The notes below the pieces were generated by a model. It ran no database searches. It saw only the letters and a list, made by a program, of their open reading frames with translations, and had not been told where the DNA came from. Below are positions 6,010 to 21,087 of a stretch of DNA of 22,179 bases, in pieces (position 1 is the stretch's first letter; each line of letters starts with the position of its first letter). Origin of the DNA: a virus. The translations under genes were made by a program, and so were the position numbers. The DNA lies in the IMG/VR virus record IMGVR_UViG_3300033156_000961, positions 1 through 22,179 of that record; one strand, 5' to 3'.

Positions 6010-6046
6010 AAAAAAATAAGGGAGATAATTATCATCTCACCTTATT
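6010..6046 (-). terminator. Hairpin plus U-tract terminator behind the major capsid gene
   Basis: On the minus strand AATAAGG pairs with CCTTATT (+ strand 6040-6046 and 6015-6021), extended by GAGAT/ATCTC arms, and is followed directly by a run of seven U (+ strand A6010-A6016). The stem overlaps the capsid stop codon at 6044-6042. This is a bacterial-style hairpin terminator; archaeal polymerase stops at U-tracts, so the stem may protect the capsid mRNA 3' end. Confidence 0.65.
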
Positions 6047-7016
6047 TATGATATATTACACATCCAGCTTTCTCGTTGAGAACATCTGCGCCGAATCTCA
6101 TCGTTACAGAAAGTCCAACTAGGTCATGGATTGGATCATCATACTGTTCTATTGTGATGTCACGCTTCATGCAGATGACACCAAGGTCATTTTTAGATAG
6201 CACTATAGCAGTAACATCTGAGCCTGCAGTTGTATCATCCCAAGTTGGTGATGATGAATCTGTTGCGGTACAGGTGTATGGAGTTAAACCCATGACTTTT
6301 GGAATCTTTCCTTCTGTTAGAGATGTGTTTGTTCCAGCATATGCAACATACGCTAGATTTGAATCGCTGAGTAGATATCCCTCTGCTGTTGGATGTGTAA
6401 CTAATGTATCTGCAAGATAGTTTTGTTTTTTGACTTTAGAGATACCCAATGCTACATCAGATACTGCAATGTGTGGACCAGCTGGATTAAGAGTGTTCGT
6501 GGTTATTTTATTTGCACCATTTAATATTTTGTTCAAGCACTCTCTGTTTAGAGCATTTTCCATCTTAGCTCCAGCCTTCTTGAGTTCAAGCTCGACTACA
6601 TCGAACAGAGAATCTTCTATTAGCTCATTAGTTATCAGTGGTCTAACTCCCCATTTGTCTATTGTAATATCTTGCTTGGTGTAAGTCTGAATATCTATGT
6701 TTATAGCAGCACCTTCAGCTACTTTTTCTGCATAACTTCCGGTCTCACCCTTGATAAATCGCACTGAGTATGAATCAGCTTTAATTACTGGGAAAATCTC
6801 TCTAAAACACTTGAAGGGTTCAGCACCTTCTATGATTGTTTTGTAGACTTCCTCCTGAACTAATGTTGAATTATTTATTGCATCTTTGTCTGATTGCAAT
6901 AATTTGTGTGTGTTCTCTCCAACAGCTTTCTTGAAGGACTCTTTATTTAGGAGTCTGCTTCTCTCTGCATTTCCTGCAAAGCCATATTCTAATAGTTTAG
7001 AAAGTTTGTGAGTCAT
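6042..7016 (-). CDS. Major capsid protein, HK97 fold (324 aa)
   Basis: The N-terminal ~40 residues are helical and charged (delta-domain-like). They are followed by an N-arm and E-loop region around residues 70-125 (R-E-I-F-P-V-I-K-A-D-S-Y, then G-S-Y-A-E-K-V-A-E-G-A-A-I), a spine-helix region (ITNELIEDSLFDVVELELKK) and a P-domain/A-domain end with a G-K-I-P-K-V-M-G-L strand. The terminal VLSKNDLGVICMKRDITIEQ and L-S-V-T-M-R-F-G-A-D-V-L-N-E-K-A segments are typical for this fold. Length is normal for the family. It lies between decoration and connector genes, with a TGTATGTT element 33 nt upstream and a hairpin terminator behind it. No obvious protease cleavage site can be fixed from sequence alone. 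There is no clear Shine-Dalgarno, so a leaderless mRNA is likely. Confidence 0.88.
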   Translation of the reverse strand: MTHKLSKLLEYGFAGNAERSRLLNKESFKKAVGENTHKLLQSDKDAINNSTLVQEEVYKTIIEGAEPFKCFREIFPVIKADSYSVRFIKGETGSYAEKVAEGAAINIDIQTYTKQDITIDKWGVRPLITNELIEDSLFDVVELELKKAGAKMENALNRECLNKILNGANKITTNTLNPAGPHIAVSDVALGISKVKKQNYLADTLVTHPTAEGYLLSDSNLAYVAYAGTNTSLTEGKIPKVMGLTPYTCTATDSSSPTWDDTTAGSDVTAIVLSKNDLGVICMKRDITIEQYDDPIHDLVGLSVTMRFGADVLNEKAGCVIYHK

Positions 7017-7561: not shown

Positions 7562-8257
7562 TTAGTCTTCGGAATAAACTATTCCACCCATTACCCTAAG
7601 AGAGCTTTCGAGTTGTTCTTCTTCCTCATTTTCTTCGATAATAGTCTTTGGTTTAGCTTTGGATTTTGATTTCTCCATTTCTTCTAGCTGTTTTTCTAGT
7701 TCAGAAATTTTATCATCCCTAGCTTTAATAGCTAGTTCCAATTCTTTTTCCTCTGTTTCCTTGGACAATACCTCGATTAATTTATCTATCTTAGCATTAA
7801 GATCTTCTATAGCCTTTTTTGGATATGGATATTTTTCAGGATTAGGATACTTACCACCCTCTAGTTTATTGATTAACTTTGCTAGTTCTTCGATGTCTTT
7901 TTTCGTAACTGTTTCCTTTTTGAGTAGGTCTTTTATCTTTTCTTTAATCACACTGACTAAACCGCCTTTCTCTTCCTCTTCCTGGGTTTCTTCTTCAGTT
8001 TCCTCTTTTTTCTTCTCCTCCTCATCCTCACACTCTTCGTCTTCACATTCTTCCGCTTTGGGCTCTAGAAGATTAGTAACTATTCCTCGAAGACTTTCTA
8101 TCTCTCTCTCTAGTTCACTAATTCTCTCTTGGATATTATCTGTTTTCTCTTCTGTTTTCTCTTCTACCACATCATTCTCGACTAATTCCTCATCTTCAGT
8201 GGCTGCTTCTTCAGTTGCTGTTTCCTCTACCACCTCAATGTTCTCTTCTTCCGGCAT
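7562..8257 (-). CDS. Nested scaffold protein from an internal in-frame start (predicted, 231 aa)
   Basis: Inside the protease fusion, exactly at the junction between protease and acidic coiled-coil tail, an in-frame ATG at 8257-8255 (MPEEENIEVVEE) is preceded by AAAGGTAAT, a usable ribosome site, and 27 nt upstream by an exact TGTATGTT element (8284-8291) like those of other late genes. A separate scaffold would thus be produced in excess over the protease, as lambda does with Nu3 inside gene C. The product is all acidic linker and heptad-like coil with many Glu and Lys and no Trp. This is a prediction from signals, not shown. Confidence 0.5.
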   Translation of the reverse strand: MPEEENIEVVEETATEEAATEDEELVENDVVEEKTEEKTDNIQERISELEREIESLRGIVTNLLEPKAEECEDEECEDEEEKKKEETEEETQEEEEKGGLVSVIKEKIKDLLKKETVTKKDIEELAKLINKLEGGKYPNPEKYPYPKKAIEDLNAKIDKLIEVLSKETEEKELELAIKARDDKISELEKQLEEMEKSKSKAKPKTIIEENEEEEQLESSLRVMGGIVYSED

Positions 8258-9226
8258 ATTACCTTTTTCATTATTACATTCACAACATACAGAATTTAAA
8301 TTTAAATCATTATACTTTGATTTAGATATTACTACAAATCCCGATTTTTCATTAACTGGTAACGAACAGATAGATACCTCAAATATATTTATAGCATCAA
8401 GAACTTCTATACATTTTGATTCATCGCATTCCTCGTGAGATAATATAACTTCACAGCCTATTGAAAATCCATTAAATTCTCCATTTAGTATAGATTCCCA
8501 TATTTTATCTGCTATTTTAAGATCTTTTCTGATTTCAGCGACTATAAATAATCCATTATCATCTACCCTTGTTTTTAGATTTCCATAGGATTTGAGAATT
8601 CTTCCTATCTGAATATTCTTATGAACTAACATTAGATTAGAATAATTTGGATCTGATATAAGAGTTTCTAATCCTGTTTTGAGTACAGAAATTGGTATGA
8701 ATTGGTTTTCACTATCCACTACAGCTACAGATGCATATCCAGCTATAATTCTTCTACCATCAGATGCTTTATCTATTATTTCTAAGTTACCGTTTAAATT
8801 GAATGGGATTTTTTTAGACATCTCTACCACTTTGAAATCATTTACAGGAACTAAGTCTAATTCATATAATGGGATGTAGCTAGTATAGCTTCCAGCATTA
8901 TTATAATGGATATGTACATACTTAGCTACATCTTCATAATTACATTTTAAGATATCTGTAAATAATCTGTATAATCTAAAATCAATTGCTTCTTTTAGTT
9001 TGTCAGAAAAATCTTCACCTCTAATGACTATGTCTATATCATTACTAGACTTTCCTTGAGTAGCTAGAGACCCAACTATCATTATCAAGGGTTTTCTTAA
9101 AGATATTGGTTTTATATTCTCTAACACCTTTTCTTTAGATATAGAAATATCACTATGTTTACCACTTGGTGGAGTTGAAGCATAAGCCTCCTCTCCAAGT
9201 TGAGATAATTCTTTTATATCATTCAT
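7562..9226 (-). CDS. Fusion: pol-beta-type nucleotidyltransferase + prohead protease (XkdF/S78-like) + scaffold
   Basis: Numbering from ATG 9226 (554 aa). Residues ~35-130 form a minimal nucleotidyltransferase: G52-S53 (VGSLATQGKSSNDIDIVIRG), D63 and D65 of the D-x-D pair, and a candidate third Asp D124 in Y-E-L-D-L-V-P. Residues ~145-305 are a capsid maturation protease: H202 in L-V-H-K-N, S255 in G-E-F-N-G-F-S-I-G, and an I-F-E-V-S-I-C-S-L-P-V-N segment. The rest is a very acidic linker followed by coiled coils, as in scaffolds that are digested during maturation. The ATG overlaps the TGA of the holin-like gene (ATGA); a TTG nine bases earlier is less likely. A nested start at 8257 may give free scaffold. 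A nucleotidyltransferase joined to a capsid protease is unusual, and its substrate is unknown. Confidence 0.82.
   Translation of the reverse strand: MNDIKELSQLGEEAYASTPPSGKHSDISISKEKVLENIKPISLRKPLIMIVGSLATQGKSSNDIDIVIRGEDFSDKLKEAIDFRLYRLFTDILKCNYEDVAKYVHIHYNNAGSYTSYIPLYELDLVPVNDFKVVEMSKKIPFNLNGNLEIIDKASDGRRIIAGYASVAVVDSENQFIPISVLKTGLETLISDPNYSNLMLVHKNIQIGRILKSYGNLKTRVDDNGLFIVAEIRKDLKIADKIWESILNGEFNGFSIGCEVILSHEECDESKCIEVLDAINIFEVSICSLPVNEKSGFVVISKSKYNDLNLNSVCCECNNEKGNMPEEENIEVVEETATEEAATEDEELVENDVVEEKTEEKTDNIQERISELEREIESLRGIVTNLLEPKAEECEDEECEDEEEKKKEETEEETQEEEEKGGLVSVIKEKIKDLLKKETVTKKDIEELAKLINKLEGGKYPNPEKYPYPKKAIEDLNAKIDKLIEVLSKETEEKELELAIKARDDKISELEKQLEEMEKSKSKAKPKTIIEENEEEEQLESSLRVMGGIVYSED
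8284..8291 (-). promoter_or_regulatory. Late-promoter-like TGTATGTT inside the protease-scaffold gene
   Basis: Exact copy of the late word within coding sequence, 27 nt before the internal ATG 8257 and preceded by AT-rich sequence. It would direct scaffold-only mRNA. A single word inside a gene could also be chance. Confidence 0.4.
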
Positions 9227-9447
9227 ATTAAACAATTTATTATAACACCAAGTATTGCTACAATCAGACTTATGGTTCCAGCAATAGTTGCTACTCTAAT
9301 GTTTAATTTTATATTACTCTTCTCAAGAGCTCTAATTCTTTTTTCTAGAGAGTTCAGCTCTTTATTAACATATTCCAAAGAGGAAATAGTAGAGCCACGA
9401 AACTCTGCTAGATTAATATCCCATTTAGTAAATTTAGAAGTATCCAT
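9223..9447 (-). CDS. Coiled coil plus membrane anchor, XhlA/holin-like (74 aa)
   Basis: The first ~50 residues are a charged helix with heptads (LEYVNKELNSLEKRIRALEK), then one hydrophobic span of about 22 residues (VATIAGTISLIVAILGVIIN) at the C-terminus. This is the layout of small XhlA-type proteins that accompany holins, with the coiled coil in the cytoplasm. It ends in ATGA overlap with the nucleotidyltransferase-protease gene. Its place inside the head genes is odd for lysis; a membrane tether for prohead assembly is an alternative. No signal peptide. Confidence 0.6.
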   Translation of the reverse strand: MDTSKFTKWDINLAEFRGSTISSLEYVNKELNSLEKRIRALEKSNIKLNIRVATIAGTISLIVAILGVIINCLI

Positions 9448-9882: not shown

Positions 9883-9889
9883 GTTAAAC

Positions 9890-12800
9890 CTATAGTTTAT
9901 TAAAGAATTTCTTTTTTGATTCCTCTCTATATTTTTCTCTGCCAAATTTCTTAACTTTTGATGCCTTTGTTGGGTAGTTATATCCAATATCAGCGTGTTT
10001 TATACTATCCATTGGTTTTGGATTTTCGATTGCCTTCCAAACTTCCCATCTAGCTGTTTTATCTGGCCTCTTGAGACATTTTATGATAAACCTGCCTTTT
10101 AATATCTTATCATCTTTAGTCTTGTCTGGATAGAAGAAATATTCATGACAATCATCTCTTGCAACTCCTGTTTTTACTTTACCTATATAGAAGCAGGACA
10201 TATATGCCCACTTATATGGATTTGACCCAACATCACCAGGTTCTATCCAGTATGAATATTCAGGCATATCTAGCTTCTCTATAAGTTTTGCTCCTTTTAA
10301 ATCTATAAGTGGTTCTTTTTCTTTACTCTTCTTTGTGATATCAACCTCTTTGGGTTCAGCACTTGGTTTTACTATTGCTAGACTATGTGCTACATTCATA
10401 ATACCACCAGCTGTCTTTCTATGAGCTCCTGTATACATTTTATAATAGTCTTGTATCGTATTATCAGTAAATACCCATTGTATAAGCATTTTTTCTCCTA
10501 CAGAGCATCTCATATCTGTATGAACGGAGTGGCCTTTAATAATATCAGCGAGGGATTTCTTACCTTTATCATAAGCATCCTTTTCTTCTTGTGTTATCCC
10601 TCTAATGTGATGTTGAAACCATATCCTTCCAGATTTTGGATTGATATATAGCTCTTTAGGAAGAGGCTCGTTGTCTTTAGCTATTGAATCATATATATCT
10701 TTGGGGATTTTACCACTTTCTACCCAGTTTTTTATATCATCTTTCTTTATCGATTTATTATTAATAATATTATCTATATTTAATCTTTCAATATCTAATT
10801 CTCTTATTCTAGATGCTAATTTAATAATCTCATTAGTTATCTCTTCTCTCTTTTTTAATAAAGATTTTGTGTCTATATCTAATTTATTTTCTCCTCTAAT
10901 GTGTCTCAATTCTTCTACTGGTATTCTCTTTGGCTCCATTAGAGATAGTTTATTAACCAAAGATACTGTATCTGTTTTATTTTTTTCTGGTATCAATTCC
11001 ATCACTCTTCCAATATAGAAAGAGTATCTTGGAAATTTCTCATTAACTGGATTATCATATCTAAGAAATTCCTCTCCAGCTATCCGTAGTATATCACCAA
11101 TATTAGCTTTAATATTAGTATTGTCTGTCTTACCCAGTACCATCTCATATTGTCCAGTTTTACCTATAGAATCTTTACCTCTATAGAATTTACCATCTGA
11201 TAATATTCCAACTGAGTGATACCAATCCTTTGTTTTCATTGACACTAACGCATCGTAATAGTCCTTATCAATATCAAGACCTATCCAATAATTATAAGTT
11301 CCTTTACTTCCTTTAACTAAATGTTTTTCTAGAACTCTTCCATCATATTCATGATAAATCTTAGCTTTTCCCCAACCATGATTTGTTGGAGCATCATATG
11401 GATGAGATAACAATTTTATCATTACACCCTCTGCTATAAACTTCGGTCTATCTATTTTATGATTTATAATATTATCTATGGCTTTATTTATACTAGATAT
11501 GTTAGATACTATATAGGCATCTGTCTTCTTATTATCGATATTAGTTGTAGTTCTTTCTATCCATATATGTTTAGATGATTTTATCCTTTGTAAATATTCT
11601 AATCTTTCGTGGAGAGGAAATGATCTGATATCTTCTCCATCATAGAATAGACAGTCAAATGCATATACATATGCATAGTCTTTTAATTCTTCTGGTGATA
11701 TCTTCTTTGCATTTAATAATGAGTTAGCTACAGTTCTATGAAGTATTTCTTTTCCATCCTTATCTAGTGCTATGAATTCTCCATCTATAATTGTATTCGG
11801 TGGAAGTAATTCTTTTAATTCTTTAATAATTTCTGGAAGTCTGGATGAAACATCTGGAGATTTTCCTTTTAATAATTCTGGATCTACATATACAAATGGC
11901 TCATCTCCAGACTTACCAAGAGTTATTCTAAGACCATCAGCCTTGATGTCTATAAGTAATTTTTCATTCAGCCATTTAGCATTCCTTAGTTCTTCATCTA
12001 TAGTTTCAAGTTGAAATCTATAGTAAGGTTTTGCTGTAGACCAATATTTCTTTTTAATCTTTGATTTAGTAACTATAATTTCTGATCTCTTTTTATCCCA
12101 ATCCTTTGCTTCATCATATGATTTTGGAGGATAAGATTTCATATACTTTTCAGATTCTTTATAGCATTTCCAATAAGAGGATTTTTTAGCCTTCTCTGGG
12201 TCCTTTCCAGTATATTCTCTATAGAGATTTTCATCAAAAGGTGGTATAATTGTGAAGTATACACTTCTAAGCACATCAACTAATTTAGCAAAGTATCTAT
12301 ATACTAAATCTAAAGTCCAATCTCCCCATTTCTCTCCTTTCTTTAGTTTTGGATAAGCTGAATTTCCTAAATATCTTAAATCTGCTATACATTCTCTCCA
12401 TCTCTCTTTAACATTTTTCATGTCAGAATCGATGCCTTCTCTTTTAAATTCATCTGGATGGAGTTTATTTTCTAATTTGCTTTTTAATGTGATTACAGAA
12501 TCTTCAGTCAATATCTTTCCATTATATTTAGATAATTCATTCTTAATATCTTTGATTTTATTTTCTAGACTTTTTCTAAGATTAGTCAAATATATTCTTT
12601 CTGGTTTTAATCTATCAGCTAGGTCTAATAATTCTTTAAATGTAGCTTTATGGTCATTTGGTTTTCTTTTATCGTATTCACCAACACCAATTATCCAGAT
12701 ACTTTCTTTTATTAAGTCTTGTTCATATTTACCTAGTCTATCAAATTCTGGTATAATAGATATCTTTTTGTTACGATATGATAATCTAATCCCGATTGCT

Positions 12801-13141
12801 GGCTTACCAACCATTGGTGGTATAGCCATAAAATTGAAGTGAACATGATATAAGTTTATTGATTCTGATATATGCTTGAAATTGCCTTTGAGATCGATAT
12901 TATCTAACACACCTTTAGATGATAAAACTGGTACATTTGGATATTTTTTAAGATAGTTCTTGAGATAGTGGAAATGATCCTCATCTGATTGAGTCACTAT
13001 AATATAATCAACTTTTTTGTCATATTTAACTGATGGATCTATCCAAATAGCATGTCCATCTATATCTAGTAATAAACTAAAATGTTTTTTATTAGGTGTA
13101 GTTAGTGAAGCTGATGTTCCTAATGAAATTATTTTAATCAT
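9890..13141 (-). CDS. Fusion: metallo-beta-lactamase fold + ATP-dependent DNA ligase + LigD phosphoesterase-like domain
   Basis: 1083 residues. (1) Residues 1-215: MBL fold (ISLGTSASLTTP; F-S-L-L-L-D-I-D-G). The usual H-x-H-x-D-H is Q51-S-D53-E-D55-H56, and the late T-H is T-N (L-T-N-L), so metal binding is altered. (2) Residues ~385-720: nucleotidyltransferase/OB core of ATP-dependent ligases: K400-A-D-G-L-R (AMP-accepting Lys), D-G-E 453-455, F-D-C-L-F-Y-D-G 495-502, E-G-V-M-I-K 571-576, W-G-K-A-K 590-594. All motifs are intact. (3) Residues ~760-800 coiled coil, then 835-1045: W-F-Q-H-H-I-R-G, H871-S-V-H874-T-D-M-R878 and I-Q-W-V-F, like the H-Y-D-F-R-L-E core of LigD 3'-phosphoesterase, with an insert. 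The ATG overlaps the upstream HIT gene (ATGA). Expected role: sealing or trimming DNA ends. The location inside the head genes is remarkable. Confidence 0.85.
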   Translation of the reverse strand: MIKIISLGTSASLTTPNKKHFSLLLDIDGHAIWIDPSVKYDKKVDYIIVTQSDEDHFHYLKNYLKKYPNVPVLSSKGVLDNIDLKGNFKHISESINLYHVHFNFMAIPPMVGKPAIGIRLSYRNKKISIIPEFDRLGKYEQDLIKESIWIIGVGEYDKRKPNDHKATFKELLDLADRLKPERIYLTNLRKSLENKIKDIKNELSKYNGKILTEDSVITLKSKLENKLHPDEFKREGIDSDMKNVKERWRECIADLRYLGNSAYPKLKKGEKWGDWTLDLVYRYFAKLVDVLRSVYFTIIPPFDENLYREYTGKDPEKAKKSSYWKCYKESEKYMKSYPPKSYDEAKDWDKKRSEIIVTKSKIKKKYWSTAKPYYRFQLETIDEELRNAKWLNEKLLIDIKADGLRITLGKSGDEPFVYVDPELLKGKSPDVSSRLPEIIKELKELLPPNTIIDGEFIALDKDGKEILHRTVANSLLNAKKISPEELKDYAYVYAFDCLFYDGEDIRSFPLHERLEYLQRIKSSKHIWIERTTTNIDNKKTDAYIVSNISSINKAIDNIINHKIDRPKFIAEGVMIKLLSHPYDAPTNHGWGKAKIYHEYDGRVLEKHLVKGSKGTYNYWIGLDIDKDYYDALVSMKTKDWYHSVGILSDGKFYRGKDSIGKTGQYEMVLGKTDNTNIKANIGDILRIAGEEFLRYDNPVNEKFPRYSFYIGRVMELIPEKNKTDTVSLVNKLSLMEPKRIPVEELRHIRGENKLDIDTKSLLKKREEITNEIIKLASRIRELDIERLNIDNIINNKSIKKDDIKNWVESGKIPKDIYDSIAKDNEPLPKELYINPKSGRIWFQHHIRGITQEEKDAYDKGKKSLADIIKGHSVHTDMRCSVGEKMLIQWVFTDNTIQDYYKMYTGAHRKTAGGIMNVAHSLAIVKPSAEPKEVDITKKSKEKEPLIDLKGAKLIEKLDMPEYSYWIEPGDVGSNPYKWAYMSCFYIGKVKTGVARDDCHEYFFYPDKTKDDKILKGRFIIKCLKRPDKTARWEVWKAIENPKPMDSIKHADIGYNYPTKASKVKKFGREKYREESKKKFFNKL

Positions 13142-13461
13142 TTATCATATTTTATTATTCCTTCTATATGAGCATGCCAATGATCTCTAATGGTTCTTCT
13201 TTTTAGTCGAAGAGTTATTCCTCTCCCAAATATCATTTTACTTCTATATAGAATTCTACCCCATGATTCTCTGGATATAGAGGTTACATGCTCATTATAA
13301 ACTACCATTGGAATTTTACAATTAGAGCAATCAACTATAACAAACTCTGATGTTGGAATATCTCTTGGATCTTCTGGCCAATATAATTTTGTGATAATTC
13401 TACCTTTTGAAAATATTTCACACAGTGGGCAACCATCTACTAGAAAAGTATCTGAATTCAT
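13138..13461 (-). CDS. HIT-superfamily (histidine triad) nucleotide hydrolase/transferase-like protein, zinc-binding
   Basis: Start chosen at ATG 13461 (107 aa), four bases after the stop of the preceding ORF; a longer start at 13527 would overlap that ORF by 62 bp. The protein opens with a C-P-L-C pair followed by E-I-F (compare C-x-F-C-K-I of Hint proteins), has C-S-N-C in the middle followed by K-I-P-M-V-V-Y-N-E-H, and ends with D-H-W-H-A-H-I-E-G, which matches the H-x-H-x-H-x-x triad. The two Cys pairs suggest a structural zinc. HIT enzymes act on nucleotide phosphoramidates and AMP adducts; aprataxin removes AMP from failed DNA ligation ends. ATGA overlap with the ligase fusion (13141) makes a functional link likely, but the specific aprataxin role is inference. 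Confidence 0.72.
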   Translation of the reverse strand: MNSDTFLVDGCPLCEIFSKGRIITKLYWPEDPRDIPTSEFVIVDCSNCKIPMVVYNEHVTSISRESWGRILYRSKMIFGRGITLRLKRRTIRDHWHAHIEGIIKYDK

Positions 13462-13465
13462 TTGG

Positions 13466-13675
13466 TTACAACCATTCTCGTCTAAGCGGAACCCAGTGTC
13501 CTGAGCTTGTTGTTCCAGACCAAACATATAGACACGTAGCTATAGCATTACCACCTTCTATTCCAGATGGTTTGAATCCAGTTATGTTTATAACACCATC
13601 TGAAAATGATGCAGAAGATGTAATTCCATCCGCTCTATAAGTTCCTATTATTGTTATTAAACCCCACTCTCCCAA
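13466..13675 (-). CDS. Small beta-rich ORF, TTG start (69 aa), possibly virion protein
   Basis: No ATG is available; the frame would start at TTG 13675 without a clear Shine-Dalgarno, so the start is uncertain. The translated sequence is Gly/Ser/Thr-rich with beta pattern (DGVINITGFKPSGIEGGNAI, then T-C-L-Y-V-W-S-G-T-T-S-S-G-H-W-V-P-L). This resembles single modules of viral surface proteins and argues that the ORF is real. It fills the gap between the 51-residue zinc protein and the HIT gene, with no other gene in this stretch. I do not recognise a family. Confidence 0.45.
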   Translation of the reverse strand: MGEWGLITIIGTYRADGITSSASFSDGVINITGFKPSGIEGGNAIATCLYVWSGTTSSGHWVPLRREWL

Positions 13676-13689
13676 ATAATAATTACATT

Positions 13690-13845
13690 TTAAATACTTC
13701 TAAGTAATTTAATAGTTTTTCCATCTTCTGTCTCTAATAGCAGAAAATCACCATTATTAATCGCAGCATTCCATCTACATCTATGACACTCTTTGTTTCT
13801 GTTTTTACAGATGTTATAGAATGAACAAACCACTTTTCCACTCAT
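13690..13845 (-). CDS. Small Cys-rich zinc-finger-like protein (51 aa)
   Basis: The ATG (13845-13843) overlaps the TGA of the prohead-protease-like gene as ATGA. Four Cys at residues 7, 13, 20 and 23 (C-x5-C-x6-C-x2-C, with C-H-R-C-R-W) suggest one zinc site; the second half is a short strand-turn-helix (GDFLLLETEDGKTIKLLRSI). The translational overlap makes it a likely real gene. A structural or nucleic-acid-binding mini-protein is possible; function is unknown. Confidence 0.6.
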   Translation of the reverse strand: MSGKVVCSFYNICKNRNKECHRCRWNAAINNGDFLLLETEDGKTIKLLRSI

Positions 13846-14330
13846 TTAATCCTCGCATCTGAGCAAGCTGGATATAAAACAATCGCAGCTCCTATGAATA
13901 CTATATTAGTAGCATCCTTTTTATTATCACTAGAATTCCATACATCTTCTGACTTAAGTTCAACAGATAGCCAATTTACTAGTCCAGCATCTATCAATCC
14001 AATTGTATCCTTAGCATTTCTAGTAACTGGAACTATATATAAATCAGCTTTAATTGCTCCATCCTGAAATCTTGGATTTTCCACATATCCTATCCTATCT
14101 AAAGTGTTCCAAGAATGGTCTAAATTGAGATAGTTCTCTTCCCATTTACTAGCTGCATTTTTTAGTTCACTAGAAGTATATCTGATTGGGTAGCTACTTA
14201 AACTATCACTATATTCACCGGGTGTTAATAGTGTAACATCACGATATATCCTAATATCCGTTGATTTGGATATCTCCTTTTTGTTATACTTAAATGGAAC
14301 TAAAGGTGTGTGTAGATGTAAATTATCCAT
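13842..14330 (-). CDS. Prohead protease-like protein (S78 type), follows portal (162 aa)
   Basis: Contains the conserved pattern of HK97-type capsid maturation proteases: H72 in L-N-L-D-H-S-W, a following I-G-Y-V-E-N-P-R-F and G-A-I-K-A-D-L-Y-I strand pair, then I-D-A-G-L-V-N-W-L-S-V-E with S122 at the catalytic position, and a terminal strand I-G-A-A-I-V-L-Y-P-A. The position right after the portal gene (GGGAGTTAG ribosome site inside the portal's last codons) is canonical. A second protease-like domain exists in the nucleotidyltransferase fusion, so one of the two may have changed role. Length is near that of a minimal protease without scaffold. Confidence 0.72.
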   Translation of the reverse strand: MDNLHLHTPLVPFKYNKKEISKSTDIRIYRDVTLLTPGEYSDSLSSYPIRYTSSELKNAASKWEENYLNLDHSWNTLDRIGYVENPRFQDGAIKADLYIVPVTRNAKDTIGLIDAGLVNWLSVELKSEDVWNSSDNKKDATNIVFIGAAIVLYPACSDARIK

Positions 14331-14332
14331 TA

Positions 14333-15523
14333 CTAACTCCCATCTTTTTTCAACGGCGCATAGCCAAACATAGCTCTAATTTCATCAACAGAGAATGGTT
14401 TCTCTTCACCCTCTCTATAACCTCTAAGTAAATTACCTAACCATTTTGCTTTAACAGCTTCATCTGCATCGGTTACCGAATTAAATTTAATATCTACAGT
14501 TCCTTCTTTTTTATTATATTCCTTTAATATAGCATCTATCAATTCATTTTTTGTTTGATTTGCTAGTTTCATTTGAAATGCTCTTATCATCCTTTCATAT
14601 AGTATTTCTTTTACTTTTGCTGTGGCTTCTGTAGATCCTTGTCCTAAACCCAACGCTTCTTCTGGACATAATAGCCCTATTACTGATTGGGTTAAGAAAA
14701 TATTAAAGTATTCTTCTACACCCTGAACTCCTTTTTCATCTATAGTATCTATCTTAACTACACCAGGAACTACAAACTCATTGGTTGATACAATATCTTC
14801 AAACTTCTTTTCGATATCCTCCATTATTTCTCTTGGAGGTATATCATTTTCATTCCCGACTGTGATTACATATTTTGCTGTATGTCTCTGGATTGCATTA
14901 AATATAGCTTCATCTGTTTCTATCTTTCTATCTATAGTATTCTTACTCGGTTCAATTAGTGATATTCCATATGGAGAAGATGGGTTTGGAAAGAATTTTA
15001 TATGAATAATATCTTCTGGTTTTAATACTACATCTCTTACCTTTCCATTTATTATTTGTTGATAAGATTCTATATTTCCATATGGATCTGTATTAATTAC
15101 TATAGTTTTAGGATCTACGGTCTTGAGATCTGTTATTCTTCCAGAGGGTGTTCTAACAATCTCTATGAATGCATCGCCATATACTAGAGCAAAGACAACA
15201 TTATCTAATAATATTGACTGGAAGTTTAATTTATCTAAATATTTTTGTATTAACTTTTTAGCTTCTTCATCTTCAGAGGTAAGATGGTAGCCCACCATAA
15301 CCGTATTCCAAGCAGTGATATTAATACTAGCAAATACTATTCCCTCTCCATTATAGTATTTCCAATAAGTTTCTAAAGTGTTTACATTTCGAGTAGATGT
15401 CTTTGGGGTTCCTGAATATCTTTTTTTGCCTGTATATACAATAGTTTTGTATCTTCCAGATTCATCCTTCCATATAGAGTTTTTTCTTCTTCTAAATAAT
15501 TTAAATGGATTATATAATTTCAT
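14333..15523 (-). CDS. Portal protein (396 aa)
   Basis: HK97-family portal features: a basic N-terminus (NPFKLFRRRK), a wing with F-A-S-I-N-I-T-A-W-N-T, the clip/stem region with N-V-V-F-A-L-V-Y-G-D-A-F-I-E-I, D-P-K-T-I-V-I-N and P-E-D-I-I-H-I-K-F-F-P-N, followed by S-P-Y-G-I-S-L-I-E-P. A long helical C-terminal half carries T-Q-S-V-I-G-L-L-C-P-E-E-A-L-G-L-G-Q-G and E-A-T-A-K-V-K. It forms the dodecameric DNA gate at the capsid vertex and docks the terminase. Length is normal for archaeal and bacterial tailed viruses. It stands between Alba/terminase and the protease gene. The start at 15523 has only a weak ribosome site. Confidence 0.88.
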   Translation of the reverse strand: MKLYNPFKLFRRRKNSIWKDESGRYKTIVYTGKKRYSGTPKTSTRNVNTLETYWKYYNGEGIVFASINITAWNTVMVGYHLTSEDEEAKKLIQKYLDKLNFQSILLDNVVFALVYGDAFIEIVRTPSGRITDLKTVDPKTIVINTDPYGNIESYQQIINGKVRDVVLKPEDIIHIKFFPNPSSPYGISLIEPSKNTIDRKIETDEAIFNAIQRHTAKYVITVGNENDIPPREIMEDIEKKFEDIVSTNEFVVPGVVKIDTIDEKGVQGVEEYFNIFLTQSVIGLLCPEEALGLGQGSTEATAKVKEILYERMIRAFQMKLANQTKNELIDAILKEYNKKEGTVDIKFNSVTDADEAVKAKWLGNLLRGYREGEEKPFSVDEIRAMFGYAPLKKDGS

Positions 15524-15539
15524 AATCTAATTCTCTTTT

Positions 15540-15797
15540 TTATTCTTTTTTCCTTTTTCCGGAAAGAATTATCTCTATTGTTGATACATTTCTCTTCTCA
15601 AATGGCTCACTTCCAACTGTGATAGTATACTTCGGATCTTCAAGATAATCTCGTATTAGAATAGCTAGAATATCTATAGCTCTTTTTATATTATTGCCTC
15701 TAGCTACTATTTTGATATCTTGGTCTTTCCGAAGGGAGTAGAAGCAAGCTGAGATATATCTAGATATATCCTTATTTCCTATATAGATTTCTTCCAT
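15540..15797 (-). CDS. alba: Alba-family DNA/RNA-binding chromatin protein, virus-encoded
   Basis: An 85-residue protein that matches archaeal Alba from end to end: I-Y-I-G-N-K-D-I-S-R-Y-I-S-A (compare the V-L-I-G-K-K-P-V-M-N-Y-V of Sulfolobus Alba), the I-K-I-V-A-R-G-N-N-I-K-R-A-I-D strand-helix with the R-G-x-x-I-x-x-A-[VI]-D signature, and the beta-hairpin end N-V-S-T-I-E-I. A strong ribosome site GGGAGGTAA precedes ATG 15797. It is packed between the terminase and portal genes (gaps of 2 and 16 bases), an unexpected place for a nucleoid protein. It may coat viral DNA before or during packaging, displace host Alba, or act on viral RNA. The classical acetylation Lys region is replaced by G-N-K-D. 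Confidence 0.88.
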   Translation of the reverse strand: MEEIYIGNKDISRYISACFYSLRKDQDIKIVARGNNIKRAIDILAILIRDYLEDPKYTITVGSEPFEKRNVSTIEIILSGKRKKE

Positions 15798-15799
15798 AT

Positions 15800-17221
15800 T
15801 TACCTCCCTATTTTTCTGATTCTATATTTCTCTTTGTTAACATTCCTAGTTGGGGTTGTTATCTTAGTGTGAATTAAACTAGGAACTTCATTCCAATTTA
15901 TCTCTCTCTCTTTTTCAGAAAGATGAGAGATTTGGATAGCAAATGAAAGGGAATCTATTGTATCATCGTGAGCTCCTCTTGGGAACACTTTTAGTTCCTC
16001 AATCCAATCATCTAATTCAGGATTCATAAATATCCTATTGGTCTCAAAGAGTACCGATAATCTCTGAACTCTTGACATTCTATCATTAGCTATAGAGGTT
16101 TTTATTGGAACAAGTGGTAATGTGCTTATTTCCATGAGTTGATCTGTTATTATCTTCTGTTGAGCCGATGATTCTATTCCTATTCTAATTGGATTCCACT
16201 TTCCAGCGTAAGATTGAATTAATTCAAATTGTCTAAACAATGATGTTTTGGTCCGAAGACCATCTACAACATATATACATCCATTAGCAACTAATATTAC
16301 AGTTATGCAGAAATAATCAGAATCATCTCCAGCTGAAGCAAAATCAACTCCTATGTATGATTCATAAGGAGGGATTGGGATTCTATAATTCTCAATTGAA
16401 TTTTGTAACCATTCACCTCTTATGGGTGAATTCTTATCCATTATTATATTATTTTGATATTGAAGCTCAAAGCTTATTGATCCGATACTTCTTTCTATAG
16501 CTTTTAATTTTTCATATGAGTATCTTTCAGGCCACAGAACTATTTTCTTTTCTCTATCTATGATTGCTTGATATCTCTTAGTTGTAAAACTGGGATCTCT
16601 AGAAAGATAATCATATATATCCCTTTCATTCCATCTAGTTCCTATAGTTATTATTTTTCCTTCTGGTTCTAGCATAGGAACTAGAGTTTGGTTATACCAT
16701 CTTATTAATTCTCTTCTTCTATGTTCTGTTCTAGAATTTCTTTGATCTGTAATATCATCTAAAACTATGATATCATAATGCCCTCCAACCATGGAGGAGG
16801 TGATACCCAATACTGTAACTGTTGGCTCTTTATGAGCAAACCCAGATTTGCCAGCTCTTCTAACTTTTAAAGCTGACCTCGTCCATACACCAGAATATCC
16901 TCTCTGGTCACCAAATAATTCTATTAATTTTTGATTCTCTTCTAGATGATGTTTAATAAAACTCATCATCTCATCAGCCTTATCTTGGCTGATAGTCACT
17001 ATCAATATCCTAATATCAGGATCTCTTATAATTCTCCAAATTATATAAGCTCCAACAAGACTGGTTTTACCATGTGATCTTGGAGCTTGAAGGCAAACGA
17101 ATTGGTGTTTCTCAAATAATTCTAACCATTCCCTATGGAAATTTTTACACTCTAATCCTAATACATCAGTAGTGAAAGCTATAGGATCAAGCGAATATTT
17201 TAATAATTCAAGTTCTGCCAT
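15800..17221 (-). CDS. terL: Terminase large subunit (ATPase + nuclease), 473 aa
   Basis: ATPase: Walker A A46-P-R-S-H-G-K-T53; Walker B I-I-V-L-D-D 151-156; coupling motif I-G-T-R-W 193-197. C-terminal RNase H-like nuclease: D293 in G-V-D-F-A-S, E350 in I-G-I-E-S-S, and D419-D420 in H-D-D-T-I-D-S-L. All expected acidic residues are present, so both motor and cutting activity should work. The protein has normal length and ends in a basic tail (RNVNKEKYRIRKIGR). It translocates DNA into proheads through the portal encoded downstream. The start at 17221 has no strong ribosome site but has late-type elements 35-50 nt upstream. Confidence 0.93.
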   Translation of the reverse strand: MAELELLKYSLDPIAFTTDVLGLECKNFHREWLELFEKHQFVCLQAPRSHGKTSLVGAYIIWRIIRDPDIRILIVTISQDKADEMMSFIKHHLEENQKLIELFGDQRGYSGVWTRSALKVRRAGKSGFAHKEPTVTVLGITSSMVGGHYDIIVLDDITDQRNSRTEHRRRELIRWYNQTLVPMLEPEGKIITIGTRWNERDIYDYLSRDPSFTTKRYQAIIDREKKIVLWPERYSYEKLKAIERSIGSISFELQYQNNIIMDKNSPIRGEWLQNSIENYRIPIPPYESYIGVDFASAGDDSDYFCITVILVANGCIYVVDGLRTKTSLFRQFELIQSYAGKWNPIRIGIESSAQQKIITDQLMEISTLPLVPIKTSIANDRMSRVQRLSVLFETNRIFMNPELDDWIEELKVFPRGAHDDTIDSLSFAIQISHLSEKEREINWNEVPSLIHTKITTPTRNVNKEKYRIRKIGR

Positions 17222-17255
17222 AAGAGTCTATATTAATAACAATAAAAAAATAAAA

Positions 17256-17270
17256 AACATTAAAACATTA
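17256..17270 (-). promoter_or_regulatory. Candidate late promoter region of the terminase gene (TTAATGTT twice)
   Basis: Minus-strand TTAATGTTTTAATGTTTTTT repeats a form of the late word (AATGTT) and is followed by an A/T-rich tract ending 35 nt before ATG 17221. It is a weaker relative of TGTATGTT. The poly-T could also terminate the upstream mRNA. Confidence 0.35.
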
Positions 17271-17302
17271 ACTCTGATATTTCTTTATCTATTTTTAGGC
17301 TA

Positions 17303-17434
17303 TTAGAAGCTAAAGCCTAGACTGAAAGTCAATCCCAGCACAAGTTTAAATAGATAGATAATACCGAGAAATGGTAGAATCCATTTTGCAGCATCAGCAA
17401 GCCATTTATCTAAATCCATATTTTTCTTTCTCAT
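17303..17434 (-). CDS. Single-pass membrane mini-protein (43 aa)
   Basis: Begins with a basic stretch (MRKKNMDLDKW), then an amphipathic part and a hydrophobic span W-I-L-P-F-L-G-I-I-Y-L-F-K-L-V-L-G-L. GTGAT precedes ATG 17434, supporting that start; ATG 17419 is an alternative, 34 nt behind an AGTATGTT word (17453-17460). It lies between the two-helix membrane protein and the terminase. It could be a holin partner or spanin-like anchor. An inverted repeat TAGGCT/AGCCTA (17296-17319) spans its stop codon. Not recognised. Confidence 0.55.
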   Translation of the reverse strand: MRKKNMDLDKWLADAAKWILPFLGIIYLFKLVLGLTFSLGFSF

Positions 17435-17507
17435 ATTATCACATTTCTTCTAACATACTAGATCTTTTAGATACCTTAGTAATACATGAATCAAAATAGA
17501 AACGATA

Positions 17508-17753
17508 CTAGTATTCTACTTCTTCAGTATCATTTCTGTGTTTAATGTAATTTATTGTTGCATGGATTATAGCCACTACTAATGGAATAAAAACTGCATA
17601 TTCTGGTGGAAATTCCTCATTTTGTAGGAATTCGGCAGTGTAAGCAAGTATTACTGGTATCAGTGTCATGAATAATCCAGTAAAGAATTTCTTAACTGTT
17701 ATCCATGGATCATAAGAAGAAACTGTGATTGTTTTCTTTCTCTTTTTTGGCAT
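17508..17753 (-). CDS. Two-helix membrane protein, holin-like (81 aa)
   Basis: A basic N-terminus (MPKKRKKTITV), then two hydrophobic spans (F-F-T-G-L-F-M-T-L-I-P-V-I-L-A-Y near 23-40, and Y-A-V-F-I-P-L-V-V-A-I-I-H-A near 52-66) separated by an acidic loop (EFLQNEEFPPE), and a charged tail. This matches small holins in size and topology. AGGAGGAATGG supplies a strong ribosome site, overlapping the end of the small-terminase-like gene. Location between the terminase subunits is unusual, and no lysis enzyme was seen in the window. Confidence 0.6.
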   Translation of the reverse strand: MPKKRKKTITVSSYDPWITVKKFFTGLFMTLIPVILAYTAEFLQNEEFPPEYAVFIPLVVAIIHATINYIKHRNDTEEVEY

Positions 17754-17766
17754 ATTTCCATTCCTC

Positions 17767-18321
17767 CTATTTATCTTCTATTAATTTTGAAACAGCGTTT
17801 CTACATTTGTCACATAGGACTTTAGAGAACTCTAGGAGCATTATTTTTGTATTTTGCTCCTTTTTAAGATTTATATGATATATATTAGAGGTTTGTCTAG
17901 TTCCATACTGCATTAAAGAAACCCAGTTCTTTCGAAGTTGGTCTAGGCTATCTCTGACTTCTTTAATAGCCTTTAGAGTTATTATAGAATTTCCTTCTTG
18001 CTCCACCTTATCTAGTAATTTAGAAGATTTATTATAGAGTTTTTCAGCTTTAGCATTAAGGTCTTTGATAGCTTTTCTATATTCTTTAATAAATAGATCT
18101 AGTGGATCTTTTCCTTCTTCTAATTTGTCTTCTATTTCTTTTCTTTCTCTGGATTCTATCCATCTCTGCACACTCATTGCAGACAAATCTTTCAAATCGA
18201 CTATTTCTGGATGGTTATTTCTTATAGTCTCAGCTATTTTAGCTCTACTGAGTCCGAAATCCAATAAGGATTGAGCTTCATCCTCTAGTCCATATTTTAT
18301 TATTTTATTTATATTTCCCAT
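17767..18321 (-). CDS. Terminase small subunit-like DNA-binding protein (184 aa)
   Basis: Residues ~8-55 look like a helix-turn-helix (EAQSLLDFGLSRAKIAETIR, then L-S-A-M-S-V-Q-R-W-I-E), the DNA-recognition part of small terminases. Residues ~60-140 are a long coiled coil (KEYRKAIKDLNAKAEKLYNK, then A-I-K-E-V-R-D-S-L-D-Q-L), giving the oligomerisation core. The C-terminus carries C-D-K-C, a possible metal pair. It is the first gene of the minus-strand packaging block, two membrane genes before the large subunit. Assignment rests on architecture and order; sequence families of small terminases diverge too far for recognition. Confidence 0.65.
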   Translation of the reverse strand: MGNINKIIKYGLEDEAQSLLDFGLSRAKIAETIRNNHPEIVDLKDLSAMSVQRWIESRERKEIEDKLEEGKDPLDLFIKEYRKAIKDLNAKAEKLYNKSSKLLDKVEQEGNSIITLKAIKEVRDSLDQLRKNWVSLMQYGTRQTSNIYHINLKKEQNTKIMLLEFSKVLCDKCRNAVSKLIEDK

Positions 18322-18331
18322 TCTATATATC

Positions 18332-18361
18332 CTCTAAATATAGAGTATAGTATAATTATAC
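18332..18361 (-). promoter_or_regulatory. Palindromic leader in front of the small-terminase gene
   Basis: Two palindromes lie before ATG 18321: CTCTA-AATA-TAGAG (18332-18345) and the perfect 12-mer GTATAATTATAC (18350-18361). On the minus strand the first hairpin ends in TAGAGG, so it takes in part of the GAGG ribosome site. Leader control of translation or an operator is possible. Confidence 0.4.
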
Positions 18362-18832
18362 CCTACCTTCATCCCGCCTTAGCTTGGCACGCCGTTCTTA
18401 ACTCTTTCTCTCAATAATATTATATAAAGACCAAAAATATTATATAATAAAAAACGACCCTAGATAGTAGTGATAGAAATCATAATTCCGTTACCGCGTA
18501 GCTGGAGAACTAAGCAGCAACTTAGCATATAGAATTCATTTAAGGTTTGTTTATGTTATATATAAATATTTATTAAAAGACATAAAGTAATCAAATGATA
18601 ACTAATTGTTACTTAGTTAAAGTCTTATCTAATGACTTATAGTAAACATAAAGTCAAATAGACATAAGTCATGACATTAGTCAATGGTTGGATTATCTAG
18701 CTATTTTTATAATATTGATTGAATATTAATTCTCTCCTGTTCCAACAGGAGTAAGTTAAGGTTGAACCTTTACATAAGTTAAGCTCTAGCATTTATATAG
18801 AAATCCTGTAAGCTTACAACCTAAACGAAAGA

Positions 18833-18867
18833 TTTATATACCCCCAAGAGTATTATCTGTTGGTGAT
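18833..18867 (+). promoter_or_regulatory. Archaeal BRE/TATA promoter and ribosome site of the plus-strand HNH gene
   Basis: TTTATATA at 18833-18840 is preceded by CGAAAGA, a purine-rich BRE, and lies 33-40 bases before ATG 18873; GGTGAT (18862-18867) is the Shine-Dalgarno. The TATA-to-ATG distance predicts a leader of about 10-12 nt. Confidence 0.75.
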
Positions 18868-18872
18868 TAAGA

Positions 18873-19397
18873 ATGTGTGAAAAAATCAACATAACGGAAA
18901 TAAAGGAAATTGATGAAACCTATCTCAAGATAGATAGGCTATTACAAGAAAATAAAGAAATAGAAAAACCAACATTCGATGAGAAAGAATGTTGCGTTTT
19001 AAATACAAAAAATATAATAAAAATCTTACAATTATTCGGAAATAAAAGAATACTTGTAAGATACGGTATAGCATTTTTCAGGAGTAACAGTTATTGGAAA
19101 GTAAACTTATGTAATACTGAAAAATTACCTGACTACTTAAAGAAAAATCGGAAATCATTACACAGATTAGTTTATACAGTATATTACGGTTATCCTAAAG
19201 GTATTACTTCAAAAGACTTTGAAATCCATCACATGTGTAGAAATCCAGAATGCTTAAACCCATTACATCTGATAGCTATACCAAAAGATAAACATAAAGA
19301 AGTTGAATATCTAAACCAAAAACTCCTAAAAGAAGGTAAAACCTTTCAAGAGATAAGGTTTATCATAAGGAAAAAATTGAATAAAGGGGAAATCTAA
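18873..19397 (+). CDS. HNH homing-endonuclease-like protein (HNH_3 type, 174 aa)
   Basis: An N-terminal ~85 residues, partly charged helix, precede an HNH_3 core: L-H-R-L-V-Y-T-V-Y-Y-G near 97-107, F-E-I-H-H-M-C near 117-123, R-N-P-E-C-L-N-P-L-H-L near 124-134, then I-P-K-D-K-H. This is the 'H-R-[LV] ... D/I-H-H-x-C ... C-x-N-P-x-H-L' pattern of freestanding phage HNH nucleases. The C-terminal helix is basic (FIIRKKLNKGE). It stands alone on the plus strand between the structural and small-gene blocks, with its own strong promoter. Either a selfish nuclease or an early viral function is possible. Confidence 0.8.
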   Translation: MCEKINITEIKEIDETYLKIDRLLQENKEIEKPTFDEKECCVLNTKNIIKILQLFGNKRILVRYGIAFFRSNSYWKVNLCNTEKLPDYLKKNRKSLHRLVYTVYYGYPKGITSKDFEIHHMCRNPECLNPLHLIAIPKDKHKEVEYLNQKLLKEGKTFQEIRFIIRKKLNKGEI

Positions 19398-19435
19398 AAA
19401 CTCCCCTCTTAATTATAAATAAGGAGATCGAGAAA

Positions 19436-19570
19436 ATGAAAAAATATAAAAATGTAAAAATGGCGTTAAGATACGCCAAGAAAAATAACTTAAAGGTCTA
19501 TCGTGAAAGGGAGATCGCCCAAGATAAAAAAGGTAGACTATATTATAGAACAGTTTACCTTGTCTATTAA
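19436..19570 (+). CDS. Small basic protein (44 aa), unrecognised
   Basis: ATG 19436 follows AAGGAGATCG, a good ribosome site, 38 bases after the HNH stop, so the two are probably on one mRNA. Lys/Arg/Tyr-rich with no acidic patch: MKKYKNVKMALRYAKKNNLK, then R-E-R-E-I-A-Q-D-K-K-G-R-L-Y-Y-R-T-V-Y. Net charge is strongly positive, suggesting nucleic-acid binding; the second half could form a beta hairpin. A long T-run terminates behind it. Function unknown. Confidence 0.6.
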   Translation: MKKYKNVKMALRYAKKNNLKVYREREIAQDKKGRLYYRTVYLVY

Positions 19571-19585
19571 TCTTTTTTTTTTATT
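19571..19585 (+). terminator. Oligo-T terminator of the plus-strand pair of genes
   Basis: Immediately behind the TAA at 19568-19570 lies TC followed by an unbroken run of T and further T-rich sequence. Archaeal RNA polymerase terminates at such U-tracts without a hairpin. Confidence 0.6.
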
Positions 19586-19612
19586 TATTTTATTATTTTT
19601 TTAGAGTAACCT

Positions 19613-19688
19613 ATTACGCATTACATTATCAATATTTTTATTTTTATATTTTTATATTAGTCTATAGAATGTTACGCCAATTATCCCC
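19613..19688. repeat. GTTACGC repeat pair 1 (between convergent genes)
   Basis: Copies ATTACGCATTACATTATC (19613-19630) and GTTACGCCAATTATCC (from 19671). Unlike the other pairs, these lie between the ends of convergent genes and have no start codon or clear TATA to their left, so promoter control is not their only possible role. Confidence 0.7.
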
Positions 19689-19749
19689 AGATTTTTATTT
19701 TAATGATTGGATAATAAAGATCCTATGATTTATATCAGCTGAAATATAT

Positions 19750-19758
19750 AAAAAAAAA
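19750..19758 (-). terminator. U-tract terminator of the 58-aa gene
   Basis: Nine A on the plus strand, read as nine U on the minus strand, begin three bases behind the stop at 19762. Confidence 0.55.
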
Positions 19759-19761
19759 TAT

Positions 19762-19938
19762 TTAGTTTATTAGCTTCAATACGTCGTCCATAGCTAATAA
19801 GAGTAATTCTCTATGTGTAAATCTTTTATCTATCTCTTTTAGCAGATCGTTTTTTGTTTTAATCAATCCTAGAATAACACATACAGATAGGTCTATTATT
19901 TCGTCTTTTAATTCCTTAGTGTAGTCATATTCATACAT
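19762..19938 (-). CDS. Small unrecognised early-type protein (58 aa)
   Basis: ATG 19938 follows GGAGTGA, and a TATATAAA box on the minus strand (about 19984-19991) sits 46-53 bases upstream. The product is helical: MYEYDYTKELKDEIIDLSVC, then V-I-L-G-L-I-K-T-K-N-D-L-L-K-E-I, ending L-L-L-L-A-M-D-D-V-L-K-L-I-N. No membrane or Cys-pair feature. The stop is followed within three bases by a nine-base U-tract (19750-19758). Its promoter-upstream region is a copy of that of the 117-residue gene to the right, which suggests a gene-family-like control unit. Function unknown. Confidence 0.65.
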   Translation of the reverse strand: MYEYDYTKELKDEIIDLSVCVILGLIKTKNDLLKEIDKRFTHRELLLLAMDDVLKLIN

Positions 19939-19982
19939 ATATTTTCACTCCTTTTATTCTATATATAATGTATATAATATAG

Positions 19983-20121
19983 GTTTATATAGTTTACGGC
20001 ATATTACGCATTTGATCCCTATGTTTTTATATTTGTTGAGGGATATTATTGCCAGATTTTTATTTCCAGATTTATATATATATTCTACAGATGAAATTCA
20101 GATTTACGCATATTATTCTGG
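19983..20121 (-). promoter_or_regulatory. Promoter with GCGTAAY repeat pair 2 (58-aa gene)
   Basis: On the minus strand: TGCGTAAT, four bases, CGTAAAC, TATATAAACC. The first element (20003-20018) begins 11 bases past the TATA end, so the two CGTAA words are about one helical turn apart, and the nearer one is where a BRE would lie. A second copy TTTACGCATATTATTC starts at 20103, 100 bp from the first. The section from TATA to about 20070 is a diverged duplicate of 20540-20637. Confidence 0.65.
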
Positions 20122-20154
20122 AGAAAATATATTAGAATTTAGATAATAATAGAG

Positions 20155-20164
20155 AAAAAAAAAA
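20155..20164 (-). terminator. U-tract terminator of the 117-aa gene
   Basis: Ten A on the plus strand abut the stop codon at 20165, read as ten U in the mRNA. Confidence 0.6.
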
Positions 20165-20518
20165 TTAAGAAATTACTTCTGCATCAGGGAACGTATCTAG
20201 GAATTCTTTTTTTATTTTTTCCCATCTTTCTTTAGTGATTTCCCTTAGGTCATCGTATTGTTTACGCCATTCTAAGATTTCCGTATCCGTATCGTCAATT
20301 TCAACGAAATTAACAAGTTTTAGCTTACCTTCCTGCTCTACCATCACTAAATCATCATTGTCAAATAATTCTCTTGTATCAGTAGATAGCATATATAACT
20401 TTCCTTTGAATTCTAGAAGTTTAAGAACTTCATGATAATTACCACCGTTATTATGACGGATATTAAATCCACAGTTACACGGTTCTCTTAATACTTCTAC
20501 TATTTTTATTTTTTCCAT
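20165..20518 (-). CDS. Unrecognised acidic small protein (117 aa)
   Basis: Start taken at ATG 20518, because GGTGAT lies four bases before it and an upstream GTG is part of that ribosome site. The N-terminal half looks beta-like (KIKIVEVLREPCNCGFNIRH, a C-N-C pair and an H-N-N-G-G turn, then L-L-E-F-K-G-K-L-Y-M-L), the second half is acidic and helical (EILEWRKQYDDLREITKERW). It has its own TATA box (20551-20560) and repeat pair, and a ten-base U-tract directly behind the stop. No known family is recognised; the small size and individual promoter suit an early host-takeover protein. Confidence 0.65.
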   Translation of the reverse strand: MEKIKIVEVLREPCNCGFNIRHNNGGNYHEVLKLLEFKGKLYMLSTDTRELFDNDDLVMVEQEGKLKLVNFVEIDDTDTEILEWRKQYDDLREITKERWEKIKKEFLDTFPDAEVIS

Positions 20519-20550
20519 CTTTATCACCTATTATATAGTATATAATACAG

Positions 20551-20684
20551 GTTTATATAGTTTATCCCACGTTACGCATTATATCGGATCATTTTTATAT
20601 TTATCGACAGATATTATTGTGCCAGATTTTTATTCTAGTTTTTTTATATATTTATAGAGATAGAATAGAGTTACGCATTTTATC
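20551..20684 (-). promoter_or_regulatory. Promoter with GCGTAAC repeat pair 3 (117-aa gene)
   Basis: Minus strand: TGCGTAAC, four bases, GATAAAC, TATATAAACC (20551-20578), 33-42 bases before ATG 20518. The second copy GTTACGCATTTTATC starts at 20670, 99 bp from the first. The intermediate sequence (A-T-A-T-T-A-T-T-G-x-G-C-C-A-G-A-T5) matches the interval of pair 2. Confidence 0.7.
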
Positions 20685-20754
20685 TAGATGACAGGATATT
20701 AATATTCCCCACACGGATATTTATCTAAAAATAAATATAAAAAAGAGAGAATAT

Positions 20755-20982
20755 TTAAATATAAATATTCTGAATATCATCGTTTTGTTTTTTATTTCGA
20801 TATTCGAATTCAATAAATCTGATTATCTCCCTCAACGTCATAAAGTTTTTCTCTTCATCAGTAAAAATACTATCTATATACGTTAACGCTTCGTCGTAGT
20901 CTATAAAGACGCCATATTTTAACTTGTCCACTATATCTTTTACTTTCGGAAACATCTTTTTGATTAATTCTTTCTCATTCAT
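20755..20982 (-). CDS. Unrecognised small helical acidic protein (75 aa)
   Basis: ATG 20982 is preceded by GGTGAT three bases upstream and by a TATA-like ATATAAATA (21013-21021). The sequence is helical and acidic: MNEKELIKKMFPKVKDIVDK, then Y-D-E-A-L-T-Y-I-D-S-I-F-T-D-E-E-K, and L-R-E-I-I-R-F-I-E-F-E-Y-R. No membrane, metal or catalytic motif. A U-tract follows about 11-16 bases behind the stop (20739-20744). One of five small genes each under a similar promoter; function unknown. Confidence 0.65.
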   Translation of the reverse strand: MNEKELIKKMFPKVKDIVDKLKYGVFIDYDEALTYIDSIFTDEEKNFMTLREIIRFIEFEYRNKKQNDDIQNIYI

Positions 20983-21012
20983 TTTATCACCATAATCAGA
21001 ATATATTATATA

Positions 21013-21087
21013 TATTTATATGTTTCGCCAAGTTACGCCTTTTATTCACAAATGGGAATATTAATGTATATGTGTTACTCATATTAT
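21013..21087 (-). promoter_or_regulatory. Promoter with GCGTAAC repeat pair 4 (75-aa gene)
   Basis: Minus strand: GGCGTAAC, four bases, CGAAAC, ATATAAATA. The first copy starts at 21032; a degenerate second copy GTTACTCATATTAT starts at 21074, 42 bp away. Confidence 0.6.

Follow-up and report, generated by a model that had tools for sequence, protein, structure and literature searches.

A diverged, virus-encoded Alba protein between the terminase and portal genes of putative archaeal tailed viruses

The window, by which we mean the whole 22,179-nucleotide stretch of viral DNA analysed here, carries a head and packaging gene cluster on its minus strand. Within this cluster, a short gene encoding an Alba protein has the gene for the terminase large subunit (TerL) as its upstream neighbour and the portal gene as its downstream neighbour. 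The main features are:

6042..7016, minus strand: major capsid protein, HK97 type (Pfam Phage_capsid, 2.8e-10)
7562..9235, minus strand: prohead protease (Pfam Peptidase_S78, 1.3e-12)
13842..14330, minus strand: g20, a conserved module gene with no assigned function, found in the same order in relatives
14333..15523, minus strand: portal protein (Pfam Phage_portal, 5.4e-13; PHROG 9232)
15540..15797, minus strand: Alba protein, 85 aa (Pfam PF01918, phmmer against the PDB, AlphaFold model and fold search)
15802..15808, minus strand: Shine-Dalgarno site of alba, GGGAGGT, overlapping the last two TerL codons and the first base of the stop codon
15800..17221, minus strand: TerL (PHROG 38, E 1.4e-88; Pfam Terminase_6C)
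17303..17434, minus strand: very small membrane-like ORF, 43 aa, between g24 and TerL
17508..17753, minus strand: g24, a small protein with two apparent membrane segments (by eye), conserved between g25 and TerL
17767..18321, minus strand: g25, putative small terminase, judged from where it lies and from its predicted helices (short ones at the N-terminus, long ones after them)

Along the minus strand the genes run g25, g24, the 43-aa ORF, TerL, Alba, portal, g20 and g19, followed by a long protein with a DNA-ligase domain, g17, g16, the prohead protease, g14 and the capsid protein. The position of g25 before TerL is conserved in relatives, and the site of the 43-aa ORF holds similar peptides in several of them and other small hydrophobic ORFs in others. 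A Foldseek search with the g25 model (pLDDT 86.5) returned no significant structural match. Since g25, itself a candidate only, occupies the small-terminase position with a small-terminase-like make-up, Alba is unlikely to be a replacement for that subunit.

Several features of the neighbouring genes are recorded here in their own right. The ligase protein (9890-13141, minus strand; 1083 aa) carries its ATP-dependent DNA ligase domain centrally, and its N-terminus resembles a metallo-beta-lactamase fold (a weak Pfam match, 0.0046); it lies within the head gene cluster and is also present in relatives and in an 80-kb contig of a second virus group, described below. The N-terminal part of the prohead protease recalls a nucleotidyltransferase (NDIDIVIRG in the window, 7562-9235, minus strand; GNDVDLVIRG in L044, 5059-5970) and is common to the window virus and the second group; the part bearing NDIDIVIRG has no Pfam match. 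Just before TerL (17222-17302, minus strand, in the window), an ATGTTT motif is repeated in many relatives as a possible promoter or regulatory site, and other relatives have an apparent inverted repeat in its stead. Intein-like in-frame insertions, recognized by eye, occur in the portal genes (at two different sites) and TerL of relatives (L002 2710-4854, L019 4542-6680, L004 3598-5991, L015 1516-4365), some of them inside the GHGKT ATP-binding motif; no such insertion occurs in the window genes.

The alba ORF starts with ATG, and its product matches Pfam PF01918 in a profile search (E 1.3e-8; 34.9 bits, above the curated cut-off of 25) and AF1956 in a phmmer search of the PDB (E 1.2e-7), while Mja10b matches a profile of the window protein's family at 3.7e-15. 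The AlphaFold model (mean pLDDT 93.6, pTM 0.82) superposes on the Mja10b structure 1nh9 with a Z of 15.0 (VIA) and a deviation of 1.0 Å over 78 residues (Foldseek E 2.3e-7), and in the fold search Alba structures align with it across the entire chain. A chance similarity is ruled out by these fold and profile matches. A sequence-only reading of this DNA had placed alba between the terminase and portal genes and seen Alba similarity along the whole protein; both claims are borne out, and the concern that structure might put the protein outside Alba is answered by a model that falls inside the Alba fold. Its scores lie under the NCBIfam cut-offs for canonical Alba (TIGR00285, 37.8 against 88.25 bits; NF003088, 43.3 against 90 bits), so that on sequence we class it as a diverged member of the superfamily. 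Some Alba versions (L041, L104, L184, L190) have an insertion of ~30 residues before the third strand.

The place of the gene is conserved. When contigs were gathered by TerL alone, keeping those whose TerL shares 37-75% identity with that of the window and whose sequence runs on far enough downstream, Alba was found directly downstream of TerL in 68 of 71, a count that includes near-copies and does not equal independent events; the same gene order was recovered when the search started from Alba alone. None of seven contigs with a TerL ~30% identical has Alba next to it, and two contigs at 38% (L196 and L197) carry a divergent, more cellular-looking Alba at the same place. The three exceptions (L172, L194, L195) have no Alba that we could find elsewhere in their records, one of which is 63 kb, and the motor can therefore work without it. 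Among five close relatives (L003, L006, L007, L009, L012), the nonsynonymous difference to the window is 0.03-0.15 for Alba and 0.15-0.25 for TerL, with synonymous sites near saturation (0.63-0.84 differ), and Alba is the most constrained of the module genes tested. This excess of constraint over TerL is limited to close relatives: in the more distant L036, L038 and L024 the corresponding values are 0.18-0.34 for Alba and 0.27-0.31 for TerL, so Alba does not in every case outrank TerL in conservation, and in L024 it is the less conserved (43% identity against 54% for TerL). A recent random capture from a host, which the sequence-only reading had considered as an alternative, is ruled out by the linkage in 68 of 71 related contigs together with the strong constraint.

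The same reading had singled out a strong ribosome site. The anti-Shine-Dalgarno duplex energy of alba in the window is -11.4 kcal, stronger than for any other of the six genes measured there; TerL has +0.1 and the portal gene -2.9. This contrast recurs over the relatives, with medians of -9.3 (Alba), -0.8 (TerL) and -4.6 kcal (portal).

There is good support for a host among the archaea. With 95% identity in Alba and 74% in TerL, the nearest relative is a 4.1-kb contig that was binned into the metagenome-assembled genome (MAG) of a Thermoplasmata archaeon, isolate B78_G9, scaffold B78_Guay9, whose two own Albas sit on other contigs; the 4.1-kb contig may have entered the MAG by a binning error. 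When 389 genomes of the MAG's phylum were searched with TerL, that MAG alone yielded a close match, the others being 23-30% identical, and a DNA search with window positions 2180-22179 (20 kb) against 80 genomes of its class returned only the 4.1-kb contig and weak short matches (E 9e-5 or worse), judged to be noise; a Sneathiella match, L028, was judged to be chance. The nearest match of the window portal in the phage collection is Halorubrum tailed virus 27, a haloarchaeal virus, and a 144,545-bp relative (L005) encodes a family B DNA polymerase and a Rad51-family protein; the same contig also carries epimerase and radical SAM genes. Alba had been put forward as a marker of an archaeal host. 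This holds as far as the domain, since the two of 14 control genomes with Alba matches are both archaea, and does not tell which archaeon; Thermoplasmatota are a possible host.

Alba also occurs in a second virus group of 14 further contigs, where it follows the prohead protease and, in contigs that extend far enough, precedes a capsid gene. Linked to TerL in one group and lying between protease and capsid genes in the other, Alba is thus placed in the head/packaging module in both. One second-group contig has a length of 80,678 bp and carries two capsid genes; in both respects it fits GBV302, an ekchuahvirus of ANME-1 with 80.6 kb and two MCPs, and the text of the ekchuahvirus paper makes no mention of Alba (PMC9894754). 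Two other viral contigs (L099 and L100) have Alba among DNA-metabolism genes, away from packaging genes, and their Albas are more cellular-like. In a tree of 89 columns, the TerL-linked and protease-linked Albas group together (98/97 support) and appear to stand apart from the sampled cellular Albas, which come almost only from the MAG's class and five solved structures. With so few columns and cellular sequences mostly of one class, this separation is tentative. We propose here a clade of viral Albas whose genes lie in the head/packaging module.

Residue changes were compared across 51 viral sequences, numbered on what we take to be the sequence of Sso10b. Viral Albas retain K17 in 49 of 51 sequences and Y22 and R42 in all 51, have mostly lost K16, K40 and R44, and in nearly all cases have gained K47 and fixed R58; K16 is also absent from most of the cellular Albas compared. 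In cellular Alba, K16, K17, Y22, R42 and R44 are named nucleic-acid contacts, and the double mutant K16N/R44I is in the set that binds dsRNA ~80-110x more weakly (PMC7498313). M20 and L24 form part of the oligomer interface mutated in published Alba work (PMC7498313); all 14 long-hairpin Albas compared, whether cellular or solved, have M and L/V at these positions, which are mostly polar in the 51 viral ones. At the dimer-dimer positions the window protein has S12 (M20), S16 (L24), F19 (L27) and Y51 (F60). It lacks both the full contact set of canonical Alba, K16 and R44 being mostly replaced, and the hydrophobic interface of M20, L24, L27 and F60. The loop of the beta3-beta4 hairpin is 7 residues long in 45 of 51 viral sequences, against 11-16 in the archaeal Alba/Sac10b family. 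Some family members are acidic (L014 and L035, each with a pI of 4.9; the second group about 5.3-6.2); Mth10b, a cellular Alba that is likewise acidic, does not bind nucleic acids (PMC3097224). The residue pattern suggests that viral Alba may bind nucleic acid as a dimer and not assemble into the filaments typical of Alba.

Given its place beside the motor genes and its tight conservation in close relatives, Alba probably assists in handling viral DNA when it is packaged, and a packaging role is the most likely of the readings weighed. The sequence-only reading had offered dressing of viral DNA or stripping of its nucleoid protein at packaging, or replacement of host chromatin; the findings support it in part, bearing out the protein's identity and its operon position, and any of these actions may apply. 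More specifically, and with a probability of roughly 45%, viral Alba would prepare viral DNA for packaging as a virus-adapted, packaging-accessory dimer. Translation would yield more of the protein than of TerL and portal, whose genes share its cluster, and its dimer would bind viral DNA late in infection as a loose, non-cooperative coat that replaces host chromatin protein; the coated DNA would then be taken up by the terminase-portal motor. A packaging role is favoured by the TerL linkage, the head/packaging placement in the second group as well, the constraint among close relatives, the ribosome-site contrast, the retention of K17, Y22 and R42, the mostly polar M20 and L24 positions, and the more cellular-like Albas of the two contigs that carry them away from packaging genes. 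It is disfavoured by the three TerL relatives without Alba, the loss of K16 and R44, the acidic members and the weaker constraint in far relatives. The bolder proposal that an Alba devoid of its usual filament contact is a core, dedicated packaging part working with the terminase-portal motor in a lineage of archaeal tailed viruses is possible, if rather doubtful.

Four other roles were weighed. Alba could be a virion nucleoprotein carried into the capsid together with the genome, which it would condense and might also shield during entry. The strong ribosome site suggests many copies, and Alba lies among head genes in both virus groups; this role is nevertheless unlikely, as the hydrophobic dimer-dimer contacts for cooperative coats are mostly polar and tailed-phage motors that pack DNA tightly usually strip bound protein. 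Slightly less likely again is an action on RNA, as an RNA chaperone, a regulator of late-operon translation or a holder of structured RNA at the motor. In Sulfolobus islandicus, Alba acts as an RNA chaperone and needs K17 to do so (PMC7498313), the residue retained in nearly all viral sequences. The 22,179-nt window, however, contains no Rfam family, and a structured RNA before TerL was set aside since that gap is partly occupied by the 43-aa ORF. Lambda gpW, whose small gene sits in the slot between TerL and portal, offers a positional precedent for a head or neck part that chiefly binds proteins and only secondarily nucleic acid; the loss of K40 and R44, the short hairpin and the acidic members would suit such a part, and the Alba fold throughout, with K17, Y22 and R42 kept, makes it improbable. 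Least probable is that Alba takes the place of chromatin protein on the host chromosome, or blocks it there, and shuts down host transcription, its operon place being historical: the MAG with the closest relative does have Albas of its own that a viral variant could displace, but the linkage is strictly to packaging genes, not early ones.

A packaging-accessory Alba would bear on how the motors of archaeal viruses cope with chromatin-coated DNA, for which the viral protein provides a defined subject for testing. A virus-made Alba adjoins motor genes across dozens of contigs and can serve as a marker by which members of this virus group are found, and the viral protein is a case of a chromatin protein altered by viruses at its contact residues. 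The papers searched on Alba and viruses describe no packaging-operon Alba, a 2024 Alba survey does not mention viruses, and a collection of known phages holds no Alba match.

Among known systems, the viral protein is closest to archaeal Alba/Sac10b (Mja10b, AF1956, Sso10b), with which it shares the fold over its whole length (Z up to 15.0) and the conserved G-K, Y, RG, A and D positions. It differs from them by the absence of K40 and R44, by K47 and the fixed R58, by the mostly polar M20/L24 positions, by the shorter hairpin loop and by scores under the NCBIfam cut-offs. A short-hairpin second Alba in the class of the Thermoplasmata MAG (L129-L132) equals the viral form in hairpin length, but retains K40, R44 and S47 like other cellular Albas and falls outside the viral clade. 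Of the Ekchuahviridae, head-tailed viruses of ANME-1 (GBV301, GBV302), GBV302 resembles the second-group contig in size and in having two capsid genes; unlike in the TerL-linked group, Alba in the second group lies between protease and capsid rather than between TerL and portal. A chromatin-type protein tied to a DNA virus has parallels: the virion of SSV1, a Sulfolobus virus, reportedly contains a cellular chromatin protein, which is taken from the host, whereas here Alba is virus-encoded inside the packaging operon. Giant viruses likewise encode chromatin proteins, in their case histones (PMC13260811). They differ in using histones, where the present viruses have an Alba within the packaging operon. 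With phage lambda gpW, the likeness is one of position only, a shared slot between TerL and portal filled by proteins of different fold and family.
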